Positions 31,366 through 35,639 of a stretch of DNA of 64,000 nucleotides are shown in pieces (position 1 is the first letter of the stretch; each line of letters opens with the position of its first letter). Source of the stretch: Cellulomonas timonensis (GTDB lineage: Bacteria > Actinomycetota > Actinomycetes > Actinomycetales > Cellulomonadaceae); the NCBI RefSeq assembly GCF_900046455.1, contig NZ_FCOT01000013.1, positions 186,001 through 250,000 of the forward strand, read 5' to 3'. A program made the translations under genes and the position numbers. The notes below the pieces were generated by a model, which searched no databases, was not told where the DNA came from, and saw nothing but the letters and a program-made list of their open reading frames with translations.

Positions 31366-32278
31366 GGGCCTGCTCGCCGAGCGGGCGGTCGACCGGATCG
31401 TCGCCCTGGCCAAGGAGCGTGACGCGGGTGTCGAGGTCACGACGCTCGACGGCGCCCTGTACAGCGGGGGGACGCTCGGAGTCGTGACGAGCCCGTCCCT
31501 CTTCGGCGAGGACCGGGTGGTCGTCGTGGAGGCAGTGGAGCGCGCGACCGACGAGCTCCTGGCCGACGCGCTCGCGTACCTCGCCGCCCCGGCGCCGGAT
31601 GTCGTCCTGGTGCTCCAGCACGGCGGCGGGCAGCGCGGCAAGAAGCTGCTGGACGCGGTCCGCGCGCAGGGCGTGCCCGTCGTCGCATGCGAGCCGCTGA
31701 AGAAGGACTCGGAGAAGGTGGCCTTCGTCACGGCCGAGTTGCGGCGCGCCTCGCGGCGGGCGGACGCGCGGGCCGTGCGCGCGTTGGTCGACGCGGTGGG
31801 GAACGACCTGCGCGAGCTCGGGGCGGCGTGCGCCCAACTCGTGGCGGACACGTCTGGTGTGATCGGCACGGAGGTTGTCGAGAGGTACTACGGAGGCCGG
31901 ATCGAGGCCACCGGCTTCCGGGTGGCGGACGCCGCGATCGAGGGGGACGCCGGCCAGGCGGTGGCGCTGCTGCGGCATGCCCTCGCCACGGGCGTGGACC
32001 CGGTGCCGATCGTCGCGGCGCTGGCGATGAAGCTGCGCACGTTGGCGAAGGTGGCGGCGACGCGCGGTCGGGGGGGAGTCTCGGTCCGTGACCTCAGCCT
32101 CGCTCCGTGGCAGGTGGACCGGGCGCTCAAGGACTTGCAGCGCTGGACCCCGGAGGGCCTGGCGGAGGCGATCACCGCCGTGGCGCAGGCCGACACCGAG
32201 GTGAAGGGCGGCGGGCGGGACCGGGAGTTCGCGGTCGAGCGCGCGGTGCTGCGGATCGCCTCAGCCGGCTCGCGGTGA
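31247..32278 (+). CDS. holA: DNA polymerase III subunit delta
   Basis: Clamp-loader subunit delta, 343 residues. The sequence APVVLVSGAEGLLAERAVDR starts the AAA+-like domain. VTSPSLFGEDRVVVVEAV, ELRRASRRADARAVRALVDA and LRELGAACAQLVAD are typical HolA motifs, ending with AVERAVLRIA. GTG 31247 (MPPTPRPTS...) is preceded by GGGGGA; it places the start inside comEC, with a 119-bp overlap. A later start would remove conserved strand 1. Convergent with the EAL-like gene, overlapping by 18 bp. Confidence 0.93.
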   Translation: MPPTPRPTSRTSRGASRAAPAGISWDEAPLAPVVLVSGAEGLLAERAVDRIVALAKERDAGVEVTTLDGALYSGGTLGVVTSPSLFGEDRVVVVEAVERATDELLADALAYLAAPAPDVVLVLQHGGGQRGKKLLDAVRAQGVPVVACEPLKKDSEKVAFVTAELRRASRRADARAVRALVDAVGNDLRELGAACAQLVADTSGVIGTEVVERYYGGRIEATGFRVADAAIEGDAGQAVALLRHALATGVDPVPIVAALAMKLRTLAKVAATRGRGGVSVRDLSLAPWQVDRALKDLQRWTPEGLAEAITAVAQADTEVKGGGRDREFAVERAVLRIASAGSR

Positions 32279-33022
32279 CGGGACGCAGTCCGTGAGGTCG
32301 AGCACCGACGCGGCGGCGAACAGGTGGCCCTGGAAGAGGTCGAACCCCACAGCGGCGCAGCGGAGGCGACAGGCCTCGTCCTCGACTCGCTCGGCGATCA
32401 ACTTCGCCCCGGAGCTGCCCGCGAGATCCACCAGCGCGTCACCCCGCGTCTCCAGGTCGCGGTAGTCGACCTTGACGTAGTCCGCGAACGGGAGCAGCGC
32501 GATCTGCGCAGGGCTCCCGGTGAAGTCGTCGAGCGCGATCCGGTACCCCTGACCGCGCAGTCGTCGCACGCCCGCCACCACGGCGGGGTCGAGGGGGACC
32601 GACTCGACGACCTCGAGCACCAGGCGGGCGGGGTGCGGCGGCAGCGGGAGGTCGCCCACGAGGTACGCGCGGGTGATGTTCACGAAGGCGAGGTGGTCGC
32701 CCGCCACGTGGTGGGCGCCTGTGCCGAAGACCTGTGCGAGGACTTTGCCGCTGGCGCGGTCCTGGTGCTCCGCGCTCCAGGTGTCGACCCGGACGGGCCG
32801 CCGGGTGGGGGACCGGTACAGGAACTCGAAGCCGACGGTGTCAGCGGCGGCGGTGACGATCGGCTGCCGTCCGAGAAGGGTGCGCCACGCGTGGCGGCGT
32901 GGGGTGGCGGGGGAAGCCGGCCGGGCCGTGTCGCATCGGGCCGCGGAAGTCAGGGCCGGGTTGGTCACGTGGGCTGAGAGCCCTGTCATGCGCGGTGATG
33001 ACGCGGAGCGCCCCGACTTCAC
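32261..33022 (-). CDS. EAL-like (c-di-GMP phosphodiesterase-type) protein with intact DDF motif
   Basis: Stand-alone divergent EAL-type domain of 253 residues (YuxH-like). Motifs in order: LLGRQPIV, GFEFLYRSP (replacing EALLRW but keeping Glu), FVNITRAYL (Asn), LVLEVVES (Glu), YRIALDDFTGSP (the DDFG loop), YVKVDYRD (Lys/Asp), LIAERVEDE and GFDLFQGHLFA. Most catalytic positions are kept, so c-di-GMP binding or weak hydrolysis is possible. The start is uncertain: GTG 33022, nine bp after the upstream paralogue, or ATG 32989. Operon with the paralogue encoded at 33032-33760, divergent from the peptide/XRE-TPR pair. Confidence 0.8.
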   Translation of the reverse strand: MKSGRSASSPRMTGLSAHVTNPALTSAARCDTARPASPATPRRHAWRTLLGRQPIVTAAADTVGFEFLYRSPTRRPVRVDTWSAEHQDRASGKVLAQVFGTGAHHVAGDHLAFVNITRAYLVGDLPLPPHPARLVLEVVESVPLDPAVVAGVRRLRGQGYRIALDDFTGSPAQIALLPFADYVKVDYRDLETRGDALVDLAGSSGAKLIAERVEDEACRLRCAAVGFDLFQGHLFAAASVLDLTDCVPSPRAG

Positions 33023-33031
33023 CCGGATGGC

Positions 33032-33760
33032 TCAACCAGGCTGCCGTGCGAGCCGCGTGGCCGAGCGGTCGAGCACGGTGGCGCGCTCGAGCAGGTTGCC
33101 CTGGAAGAGGTCGAAGCCGAGGTCGCGGCTGTGACTGAGCATCCAGCGCTGCTCGACGAACTCCGCGATCAGCAGGGCGCCGTAGGAGCGCGCCAGCTCG
33201 ACCACCGGCAGCCCCTCGACGTCGAGGTCGCGGACGTCGATCTTCACGAAGTCCGCGTGGGGCAGCAGCAGCCGCTGGTCCGGCCGACTGATGAACCCGG
33301 GGATCGCGATGCGGTAGCCGCGCTCGCGCAGGCGCCGGACCCCGGCGATGACGGTGGGGTCCACGTCGACGTTGTCGGCGATCTCGATCACGAGCCGGTC
33401 GGGGCGCGCGGGGATGGGCAGCTCGCCCACCAGGTAGCTGCGCGGCATGCGCACGAACAGCCATCGTCCGTGCGCGGCCTGCTCGAGGTCGCTGCGCCCG
33501 AAGGTGGCGCGGAGCACGTGGGCCGTGGCGCGCTCGTGCTGCAGCGCGCTCCAGCTGGGCGACGAGGTGTGGGGGGCTCCTGGGTTCCGGAATGAGAACT
33601 CGTAGCCGAAAGGCCGCAGCCGCGGGGTGAAGATCCCCTGCCTGCCCACGAGGACCTGCTCACGGGCCACGTGGCGCGCCCACTCGTCGCGGAGCCGCTC
33701 CGGGACTGCCGCGTCCACCGCTGCGGCCAAGGCGGCGGATGCTTGCTCGTCAGGGGTCAT
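33032..33760 (-). CDS. Degenerate EAL-like paralogue (DD replaced)
   Basis: Paralogue of the downstream protein, about 243 residues from ATG 33760 (MTPDEQASAALAAAV). It shares layout and motifs: LVGRQGIF, GYEFSFRNP, FVRMPRSYLVGELPIP, LVIEIADN, then YRIAIPGFIS where the catalytic DD pair is replaced by PG, FVKIDVRD, LIAEFVEQ and GFDLFQGNLLE. Loss of the two metal-binding aspartates suggests a non-catalytic c-di-GMP or protein-binding role, maybe pairing with the other copy. The upstream 226-bp region to the peptide gene is divergent and rich in GTGAC/GTCAC elements. Confidence 0.78.
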   Translation of the reverse strand: MTPDEQASAALAAAVDAAVPERLRDEWARHVAREQVLVGRQGIFTPRLRPFGYEFSFRNPGAPHTSSPSWSALQHERATAHVLRATFGRSDLEQAAHGRWLFVRMPRSYLVGELPIPARPDRLVIEIADNVDVDPTVIAGVRRLRERGYRIAIPGFISRPDQRLLLPHADFVKIDVRDLDVEGLPVVELARSYGALLIAEFVEQRWMLSHSRDLGFDLFQGNLLERATVLDRSATRLARQPG

Positions 33761-33986
33761 GACATCTATGACAGCACATACAAGCCGCTGTGACACTCGC
33801 CCTTCCGCGTGACATCGCCTCCCGGCCCTTCCGCGTCCCCCCAGCCAGGACATGTGATCGGCGTGCGGGACTCACCCATTCGGGGTGCAGTTCACCCCGG
33901 ACGCGCGAGGTGGCTGGCTTTCGAGTGGCGACTCCGGTCACTATATGTTTGACAGTAAGTCAGTCCACTGTGACAGGAGATCACCC

Positions 33987-34121
33987 GTGACCCGCACCCT
34001 GAAGGCCCTTTCCGTCCTCGCCGTCGCCTCCGTCCTCACGCTCGGCGCCTCGGCAGCCGCCCACGCCGGCGAGGTCACCGTCCTCTCGGGGGCCACGGGA
34101 TGTTGCCGCATCATCAAGTGA
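33987..34121 (+). CDS. Small secreted peptide precursor, 44 residues (pheromone candidate)
   Basis: GTG 33987 with AGGAGA eight bases upstream opens a 44-codon gene. MTRTLK is a basic n-region; residues 7-25 (ALSVLAVASVLTLGASAAA) form the hydrophobic core; AHA before Gly28 is a signal-peptidase I site. The mature peptide would be about 17 residues, GEVTVLSGATGCCRIIK, with an adjacent Cys pair and a basic end. It has its own strong terminator (34148-34184) and lies 134 bp before an XRE-TPR regulator, the layout of RRNPP peptide-receptor pairs. I recognise no known family. A non-signalling secreted peptide or bacteriocin-like role remains possible. Confidence 0.75.
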   Translation: MTRTLKALSVLAVASVLTLGASAAAHAGEVTVLSGATGCCRIIK

Positions 34122-34147
34122 GCGAGCCGACTCGCTGAGCTGTGCTC

Positions 34148-34184
34148 CAGAACGGGCGTCGACCGCGTGTCGGCGCCCGTTCTG
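34148..34184 (+). terminator. Strong hairpin after the peptide gene
   Basis: CAGAACGGGCG (34148-34158) pairs with CGCCCGTTCTG (34174-34184). The stem extends inward through one U-G pair to CGAC/GTCG, about 16 pairs with a 5-nt loop, then TGTTCC. It makes the peptide gene a separate short transcript. Confidence 0.8.
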
Positions 34185-34233
34185 TGTTCCAGTCCAGTAA
34201 CAATCCCCCGAATGGCGACGGACTTTCGCAGCC

Positions 34234-34250
34234 GTCACAGGTAAAGTGAC
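34234..34250. promoter_or_regulatory. GTCAC-N7-GTGAC inverted repeat before the XRE-TPR gene
   Basis: Perfect 5-bp arms (34234-34238 and 34246-34250), five bases before the ATG of the regulator. Related GTGAC/GTCAC pentamers occur at 33790, 33809, 33937, 33970 and 33987. This is a candidate operator for the regulator. Confidence 0.5.
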
Positions 34251-34255
34251 TCCTT

Positions 34256-35581
34256 ATGACCACGATCGCTGACCGCGTGCGCCAGGCACGCCTCGCCGCC
34301 GGGCTGTCGCAGACCGCGCTTGCCGGGGACGCGTTCTCACCGAGCTACATCTCGCTGATCGAAGCGGGGCGCCGGGAACCCACGGACGCCGCGCTTGCGG
34401 TGCTCGCGGGCCGGCTCGGGTCCACGGTGGAGTACCTCAAGCACGGCGACGACGGGCCCAACGAGGCGCGGACCAAACTCGAGGTCGACTACGCCAAGCT
34501 CGAGCTGACCTCGGGCGAGTCCTCGGCCGCCCGCGCACGCCTGGGCCGCCTGGACTTCGAGTCGGTCACCCAGGCGCTGCGCGTCGACGGGCTCCTGACG
34601 CTCGCTCGAGCGCATGAGGCCCTCGGCAACCTCGAGGAGTCCGTGGCGATCCTCGAGCCACTGCTCACGGACGCCCGGGGCCGCGGGCACCACATGGACG
34701 CCGCGATCGTGGCCACCGGCCTGGTCGCGTCCTACCTGGAGGCCGGTGACCTGCACCGGGCCGTCGAGATCGGCGAGCGCACGCTGCGCGACCTCGACGG
34801 TGCGGCGCTGGCCGGCACCGACGAGTACCTCCGGCTGGCCTCCACGGTGCTGTGGGCCTACGTCGAGCGCGGCGACCTGCTGTACGCGACGCACCGGGCC
34901 GCCGAGCTGATCCGGCAGGCGGAGGAGGTCGGCAGTGCGCGAGGCCGCGGCAGCGTCTACTGGAACGCCGCCGTCGTCGCCGAGCACCGCCGGGACTACG
35001 AGCTCGCGCAGCGCTACACGGAGCGGGCGCTCGCCCTGCTCGGCGAGGGGGAGAGCGGCCGCGACCTGCCGCGCCTGCGGCTCAACTACGCCTGGCTGCT
35101 GCTGCGCAGCGACCCCGCGGAGCCCCATGAGGCGCTGCGCCAGCTCGACCGCGCGATCCCGGAGCTGCTCGCCAGCGGGTCCGAGATCGAGCTCTCGCGG
35201 GTGGACGTGGAGCGTTCGCGCGCCCACCTCGTGCTGCATGACCCCGTGCTCGCCGAGGCCTGCGCACGGGACGCGATCGCGCGGCTGGGCGAGCAGCCGC
35301 GTCTGGAGACTGCGGTCGCCCAGCTCGCACTGGGGGATGCGCTCTACGCCCGGGAGGACGTCGCGGGGGCGACGCGGGCGTACCGATGGGCCGCGGACAT
35401 GCTCGGCATGATGTCCGCGAACCGGAAGTCGGCCGCCGCCTGGCGTGAGCTCGGCGACCGCTTCATCGGGAACGGGGACGTCGCGGGGGCAGCACATGCC
35501 TTCGATCGCGCTCTCCGCGAGGCGGGTATCCGGCCCGCCGTGCCAGCTGTCCTCCGGGAGGTGTGGAACGCGGGGGTGTGA
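34256..35581 (+). CDS. XRE-family HTH regulator with TPR domain (RRNPP-like)
   Basis: Regulator of 441 residues. An XRE HTH occupies about residues 5-60 (IADRVRQARLAAGLSQTALA, YISLIEAGRREPTDAALAVL). The remaining about 370 residues are helical TPR-like repeats (LLTLARAHEALGNLEESVAI, VASYLEAGDLHRAVEIGERT, YELAQRYTERALALLGEGES, VAGAAHAFDRALREAG). Architecture and length match NprR-like RRNPP receptors that bind short secreted peptides. The gene for such a peptide precedes it. The DNA-binding target is probably the GTGAC-rich region between 33.75 and 34.25 kb (inference). Ends at a perfect 15-bp hairpin convergent with rpsT. Confidence 0.88.
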   Translation: MTTIADRVRQARLAAGLSQTALAGDAFSPSYISLIEAGRREPTDAALAVLAGRLGSTVEYLKHGDDGPNEARTKLEVDYAKLELTSGESSAARARLGRLDFESVTQALRVDGLLTLARAHEALGNLEESVAILEPLLTDARGRGHHMDAAIVATGLVASYLEAGDLHRAVEIGERTLRDLDGAALAGTDEYLRLASTVLWAYVERGDLLYATHRAAELIRQAEEVGSARGRGSVYWNAAVVAEHRRDYELAQRYTERALALLGEGESGRDLPRLRLNYAWLLLRSDPAEPHEALRQLDRAIPELLASGSEIELSRVDVERSRAHLVLHDPVLAEACARDAIARLGEQPRLETAVAQLALGDALYAREDVAGATRAYRWAADMLGMMSANRKSAAAWRELGDRFIGNGDVAGAAHAFDRALREAGIRPAVPAVLREVWNAGV

Positions 35582-35603
35582 TCCCGCCGACCGTCGGACA
35601 TGG

Positions 35604-35639
35604 CGAAGGCGTCACCCCGCAGGGGGGGTGACGCCTTCG
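35604..35639. terminator. Bidirectional terminator between XRE-TPR gene and rpsT
   Basis: Perfect 15-bp stem: CGAAGGCGTCACCCC (35604-35618) with GGGGTGACGCCTTCG (35625-35639), 6-nt loop. Serves both convergent genes. Confidence 0.85.

Follow-up and report, generated by a model that had tools for sequence, protein, structure and literature searches.

The stretch of Cellulomonas timonensis DNA analyzed here is 64,000 nucleotides long (NCBI RefSeq assembly GCF_900046455.1, contig NZ_FCOT01000013.1, positions 186,001 to 250,000; hereafter, the window). It carries a short gene for a putative secreted peptide (33987–34121, + strand) followed, in the same direction, by a gene for a regulator that is its candidate receptor (34256–35581, + strand). 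The two genes lie between two minus-strand genes for EAL-domain proteins and the gene of the S20 ribosomal protein (PF01649).

The short gene encodes a propeptide of 44 residues, composed of a putative signal sequence, MTRTLKALSVLAVASVLTLGASAAAHA, and of GEVTVLSGATGCCRIIK. The start codon is GTG, and AGGAG lies 5′ of it, in agreement with the ribosome site of its own that a preliminary description of the window had attributed to this gene. The N-terminus is charged and hydrophobic, and a cleavage site, placed by reading at AHA|GE, leaves 17 residues after the AxA motif, with the tail SGATGCCRIIK. The 44-residue peptide had no match in Pfam and only chance-level matches in NCBIfam. We then applied an open reading frame (ORF) rule combining hydrophobicity, charge, and a ribosome-site pattern, in which export is predicted from hydrophobicity and charge: over the 64 kb of the window, 33987–34121 was the sole match. 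Among 18 close pairs of the peptide ORF, the proportions of synonymous (pS) and nonsynonymous (pN) differences were 0.189 and 0.047, respectively, and the resulting pN/pS of 0.247 indicates that the small ORF is selected as a protein. In general, the Cys-Cys pair is the constant feature of the peptide: it was present in 76/76 distinct peptides (39 to 48 residues long), preceded by G in 74 and followed by R or K in 73, with a further G at position −4 in 71 and with 2 to 6 residues on its C-terminal side.

Between the two genes, at about 34148–34184 (+ strand), the sequence can form a very stable hairpin (−45.5 kcal/mol computed for 34119–34205, z-score −6.05), which is probably a terminator. 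It is the "strong private terminator" of the preliminary description, but it has no T-run and is not among the calls of the terminator scan; thus, we only infer that it terminates transcription.

The regulator, as previously described, is a protein of 441 residues with an XRE-type helix-turn-helix (HTH) domain and tetratricopeptide repeats (TPR), for which HTH_31, HTH_3, TPR_12, and TPR_2 were above the Pfam cut-offs. Its nearest named relatives belong to Cellulomonas (C. cellasea ET82, 97% identical). The best NCBIfam matches, RamB (E-value 0.0019) and the NsdA family (E-value 0.07), were far below the cut-offs and were rejected, and a search for a phage origin in viral_contigs gave one match, confined to residues 1–55. 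In the AlphaFold2 model (predicted local distance difference test 90.3, predicted template modeling score 0.80), the HTH is followed by helix pairs up to the end of the protein. Structures matching the model were generic TPR proteins mixed with PlcR:PapR:DNA, NprR, NprR:NprX, and Rap:Phr, with no family prominent. More in detail, PlcR (3u3w) had a Foldseek E-value of 1.5e-6, while Z-scores were 21.1 for Rap (4gyo), 20.8 for NprR (5dbk), and 18.8 for NprR:NprX (4gpk); the TPR proteins LGN, APC, and OGT scored equally or better. Across 17 diverse homologues, the invariant residues include W236, N237, R273, R390, W396, and R397, which, by the helix limits of the model, each belong to the leading helix of a pair; in TPR arrays, this helix usually faces the concave side. 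The modeled positions suggest that these residues could line a peptide groove.

The preliminary description had made its proposal depend on whether regulator orthologues, too, have the small ORF next to them, and they do. Regulator orthologues occurred in 38/150 sampled Cellulomonadaceae genomes, from 4/25 genera, and all 38 (C. timonensis included) have a small secreted-type ORF 64–305 nt upstream in the same direction. Furthermore, applying the ORF rule, unchanged, to 59 loci from named genomes gave a match in 57, all lying no more than 1.5 kb from the regulator (a total of 249,771 bases), and none in the 842,360 bases farther away; the confinement of the matches to the neighborhood of the regulator means that the pairing exceeds chance. 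The two loci without a match are L117 and L121; the L117 contig (Cellulomonas bogoriensis) has the same length, and its regulator match the same position, as in L025, where the ORF is present. By eye, L052 carries a divergent ORF that the rule misses; it contains PCCRGFQA, and its tail is longer. Together with the pN/pS value and the invariant cysteines, these results bear out the earlier claim of a genuine gene for a short secreted-type Cys-Cys peptide.

Each Cellulomonadaceae locus has one copy of the Cys-Cys ORF. This is also the count given by the rule for L037 and L109, where the regulators are in tandem, a second XRE-TPR gene adjoining the first. Some Cellulomonadaceae have a second XRE-TPR paralogue adjoined by ORFs with SPCCK tails. 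Downstream of this paralogue, L035 (3223–4098) and L036 (143–1078) carry four tandem Cys-Cys propeptide ORFs each, with tails such as ASPCCKQAIR, LSPCCKSAIR, and ASPCCKSAGQ, resembling tandem pheromone propeptides.

The pairing extends to other actinobacterial families. In other families of the order, homologues about 34–42% identical to the regulator are accompanied by a small secreted-type ORF that ends in Cys-Cys or has it close to the end (tails GPGPVCCAG, GGTITCCSR, and RPATCCTKG), and in Kitasatospora the small ORFs are divergent and end in PPECC and SGQCC. A profile of 17 regulators, used at E-values up to 1e-25, matched 88/394 genomes of the class and 30/296 of the phylum. We inspected 118 loci (L125–L242), which are part of these matches and leave out further places, including many second copies in family codes f35 or f37; by a strict rule, a Cys-Cys ORF was found in 56 of them. 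CC is often the very end of the peptide, and the usual orientation of these ORFs is divergent or convergent. A looser inspection of the regulators without a strict match added a few peptides (L132 and L152), with none otherwise convincing.

Of 146 pooled loci, two with short matches (L179 and L180) were dropped, leaving 144 rows. Among these, the Cys-Cys ORF was present beside 79/106 regulators scoring at least 160 bits and 3/38 scoring below, against 0.006 per locus in shuffled flanks; the 160-bit line was set after the data had been seen, and the scoring profile, A1, was built from peptide-bearing loci (all but L052). After the removal of duplicate rows (L149/L239, L052/L121, and L023/L037), the count at 160 bits or more was 77/103. 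The low-scoring f37 regulators, which we guess to be from Streptomyces, had the ORF in 0/15 cases. The ORFs occur in 13 family codes (f1, f15, f16, f18, f27, f32, f35, f38, f44, f45, f46, f54, and f60) and in Streptomycetaceae. Thus, what had been presented as a possible Micrococcales variant is a real pairing, but not one peculiar to Micrococcales. In the FastTree phylogeny, most regulators with a Cys-Cys ORF fall in one group of 97 rows (support 86, unstarred), with f44 and f60 outside it and many long branches meeting.

Some further observations concern these families. In f44 (L219–L222, guessed to be freshwater Nanopelagicales), the regulator and the Cys-Cys ORF are present in 4/4 genomes, of 1.5–2.2 Mb. 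In Kitasatospora (L122, 8416–9799; L123, 5625–7020), a gene for a family 4 glycosyltransferase, presumably GlgA, lies 28–37 nt after the peptide gene on the same strand, and relatives of this glycosyltransferase are also found near f44 regulators (compare L261, 2078–3241). In f35, a gene for a CopC-like copper protein lies beside the regulator in 14 loci (L184, L187, L188, L189, L193, L194, L199, L200, L202–L206, and L262, with L188 and L262 being one place). Several f35 regulator matches (e.g., G830:C1:5461358-5462644) have one stop codon within the aligned stretch. L235 and L236, low-scoring XRE-TPR genes that are nearly identical, sit at opposite ends of a single 7.6 Mb contig (G851:C1), recalling the terminal inverted repeats of a linear chromosome.

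A palindrome, GTCA-N9-TGAC, is shared by three promoters of the C. timonensis locus and represents a candidate operator. It occurs at the regulator promoter (34234–34250, GTCACAGGTAAAGTGAC, with the −10-like TAAAGT inside), at the peptide promoter (33937–33953, GTCACTATATGTTTGAC), and, for the divergent EAL gene, across the gene start (33756–33772, GTCATGACATCTATGAC). Among 56 Cellulomonadaceae loci, the palindrome at the regulator promoter is exact in 50 and has at most one mismatch in all 56, and 49 of the 50 exact sites contain TANNNT; exact copies are found at the peptide promoter in 39/55 loci and at the divergent EAL start in 44/51. For comparison, 913 random placements of 55 nt gave no exact palindrome and 20 with at most one mismatch. 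Of all sites in the 56 loci, 138 fall in the first 1 kb upstream of the regulator, compared with 14 across the remaining 987 kb. In a pattern search for a wider regulon across the whole C. timonensis genome, GTCAYNNNTANNRTGAC matched at the regulator only, TGTCA-N9-TGACA had no match, and GTCAY-N7-RTGAC occurred in 31 places against 4 for the reversed control; the regulator and EAL promoters account for two of the 31. By eye, the palindrome was also recognized at L053 and L054, which belong to other families of the order. The regulator is the putative binder of GTCA-N9-TGAC. Since the sites overlap −10-like elements near the start codon, binding would be expected to repress, and the message of the regulator may be leaderless.

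The preliminary description had also reported a divergent EAL-like pair as the possible output of the system. Both genes do encode EAL-domain proteins (PF00563): the first, which is divergent from the peptide gene and is the proposed output, lies at 33032–33760 (− strand, E-value 6.6e-10), and the second, downstream of it, at 32261–33022 (− strand, E-value 4.8e-14). Judging from the motifs known for EAL domains, the first seems degenerate and the second more complete; the second had no relative in the PDB by phmmer at E-values up to 0.001. An EAL gene is upstream and divergent in 51/56 loci (in L109, the copy is about 2 kb away). It is missing in L101, L113, L115, L117, and L118; the upstream contig measures only 563 nt in L101 and 758 nt in L117. 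The palindrome common to the EAL, peptide, and regulator promoters supports the EAL pair as an output. Nearby, ARAGORN called a tRNA-Gly (gcc) at 31948–32027, inside a long open frame that we take to be holA; the call is probably false.

To compare the evolution of the peptide with that of the regulator, we used 48 loci with 39 distinct peptide C-termini. Given the EAL distance, the distance between peptide C-termini correlated with the TPR distance with a partial r of 0.375 (0/499 permutations), while the value for the HTH distance was lower (0.139, 20/499 permutations).

The conserved pairing, the protein-level selection on the peptide, the palindrome at three promoters, and the covariation between C-terminus and TPR are observed. 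Reading them together from the sequences, we consider it likely that the two genes form a circuit similar to those of the RRNPP family, with a secreted Cys-Cys peptide and a cytoplasmic XRE-TPR receptor. The small gene would be translated into a propeptide; its signal sequence would direct export, and processing would leave a short C-terminal peptide containing Cys-Cys. Cleavage after Cys-Cys-Arg/Lys in Cellulomonadaceae could produce the CC terminus that is already encoded as such in other families, although this is a guess. Re-entry of the peptide into the cell would probably use an Opp-type oligopeptide permease; the C. timonensis genome encodes 13 SBP_bac_5 oligopeptide-binding proteins, so that an importer is available. 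Once inside, the peptide would bind the concave TPR face of the neighboring XRE-TPR protein. Without peptide, the regulator, probably as a dimer, would occupy the GTCA-N9-TGAC sites that overlap three −10 regions (its own, that of the peptide gene, and that of the divergent EAL gene) and would repress all three genes. Binding of the peptide would most likely relieve this repression, resulting in autoinduction; this sign is somewhat favored, and the opposite one, with the peptide as a corepressor, is possible. The EAL proteins could then affect the turnover or the binding of cyclic di-GMP.

Several results weigh against this circuit. No RRNPP-specific Pfam or NCBIfam model was among the matches of the regulator at E-values up to 1, phmmer against the PDB retrieved three engineered TPR sequences only, and generic TPR proteins and RRNPP receptors fit the model equally well. 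In many peptides of the Actinotalea type, no clear AxA site for cleavage could be read. The signal sequence, too, follows the HTH (0.274, 0/499 permutations) and TPR distances (0.119, 3/499), and the control for descent is thus imperfect. Outside Cellulomonadaceae, only 9/21 f35 regulators have the ORF (L204, among the nine, being doubtful), it is absent from f101 (0/3), f105 (0/1), and f39 (0/1), and, near the class-level regulators, the palindrome was not found apart from isolated matches. The CopC neighbors of the f35 regulators, moreover, suit a role in metal handling.

This last point belongs to the chief rival explanation, namely that the peptide is an output only: the regulator would respond to something else, such as a metabolite, a metal, or thiol stress, and the secreted Cys-Cys peptide would act outside the cell, for instance by binding metal, as adjacent cysteines are able to do. 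With the palindrome at its promoter, the peptide gene is a likely target of the regulator, which this explanation accommodates, as it does the 14 CopC loci. Against it, the CopC matches are limited to f35 among the loci searched for CopC, the C-terminus of the peptide covaries with the TPR more than with the HTH, and the regulator-peptide pair persists as the other neighbors change; overall, we regard it as unlikely. A small bacteriocin or toxin-like peptide accompanied by a regulator would also be small, of secreted type, and Cys-containing, and the four tandem copies beside the paralogue in L035 and L036 could be read in this sense. This is quite improbable, however, as no immunity, export, or modification gene was recognized in the neighborhoods inspected (by Pfam on a few neighbors), and the peptide keeps a single copy per Cellulomonadaceae locus and the same partner across large distances. 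We give even less credit to a leader in which ribosomes on the Cys-Cys codons would govern the regulator by attenuation. The Cellulomonadaceae arrangement, with the ORF upstream in the same direction and a strong hairpin after it, would suit a leader. Many other families, however, carry the ORF in divergent or convergent orientation; the regulator is served by a conserved promoter-like palindrome of its own; and attenuation makes no use of a signal sequence.

Extending the peptide-receptor circuit to the whole phylum, we are slightly inclined to believe that Actinomycetota own an old family of peptide pheromones. In this family, the Cys-Cys end would be a common recognition or redox element, the preceding residues would give lineage specificity, and dedicated XRE-TPR receptors would control differing outputs, i.e., EAL proteins in Cellulomonadaceae and perhaps CopC-type proteins in f35 and the glycosyltransferase in Kitasatospora.

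RRNPP-type cytoplasmic peptide sensing is described for Bacillota, their phages, and plasmids. A large survey tool for RRNPP systems was run on Firmicutes and viruses, and the same article calls the signals of actinobacteria typically enzyme-made small molecules (PMC10075063); the main text of PMC9765709 does not contain the word "Actinobacteria". In the titles and abstract beginnings of open-licence PubMed Central (PMC) papers, which exclude subscription journals and preprints, we found no description of a Cys-Cys peptide paired with an XRE-TPR protein. If correct, the circuit would represent an undescribed kind of peptide signaling in actinobacteria, and the phylum would gain candidate pheromones together with their named receptors, an operator, and an initial output, all of which could be tested by synthetic peptides. 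An oligopeptide signal of Streptomyces coelicolor is imported by BldK, an ATP-binding cassette (ABC) transporter whose binding protein is of the SBP_bac_5 type (PMC11303876). Like the proposed circuit, the BldK system thus relies on an actinobacterial oligopeptide and ABC-transporter uptake, and the passages of that article on BldK name no gene pair of the present kind (PMC11303876). The pairing could also be relevant to oligopeptide signals that actinobacteria import, the BldK-dependent one among them.

The likeness to RRNPP and NprR proposed in the preliminary description holds for the HTH-TPR architecture and for the neighboring exported-type propeptide gene, so that a system working like RRNPP is supported in architecture and gene pairing; it does not extend to an RRNPP-specific sequence match or to a specific fold match, and by sequence the regulator would not be assigned to RRNPP. 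In the Rgg-SHP and ComR-ComS systems of streptococci, a small peptide gene lies beside the XRE-TPR-type regulator that controls it, an arrangement similar to that of our pair, which differs in having no sequence match to them at E-values up to 1 and in its signal-sequence propeptides with Cys-Cys. PlcR-PapR and NprR-NprX of Bacillus, whose mechanism is well known, share with our pair the N-terminal HTH, the TPR superhelix, and the adjoining gene for a short exported propeptide. Compared with them, the pair described here belongs to Actinomycetota and has no RRNPP-specific sequence match; it has an invariant Cys-Cys, a peptide gene that is divergent or convergent in many families, and a GTCA-N9-TGAC palindrome in common with an EAL gene.

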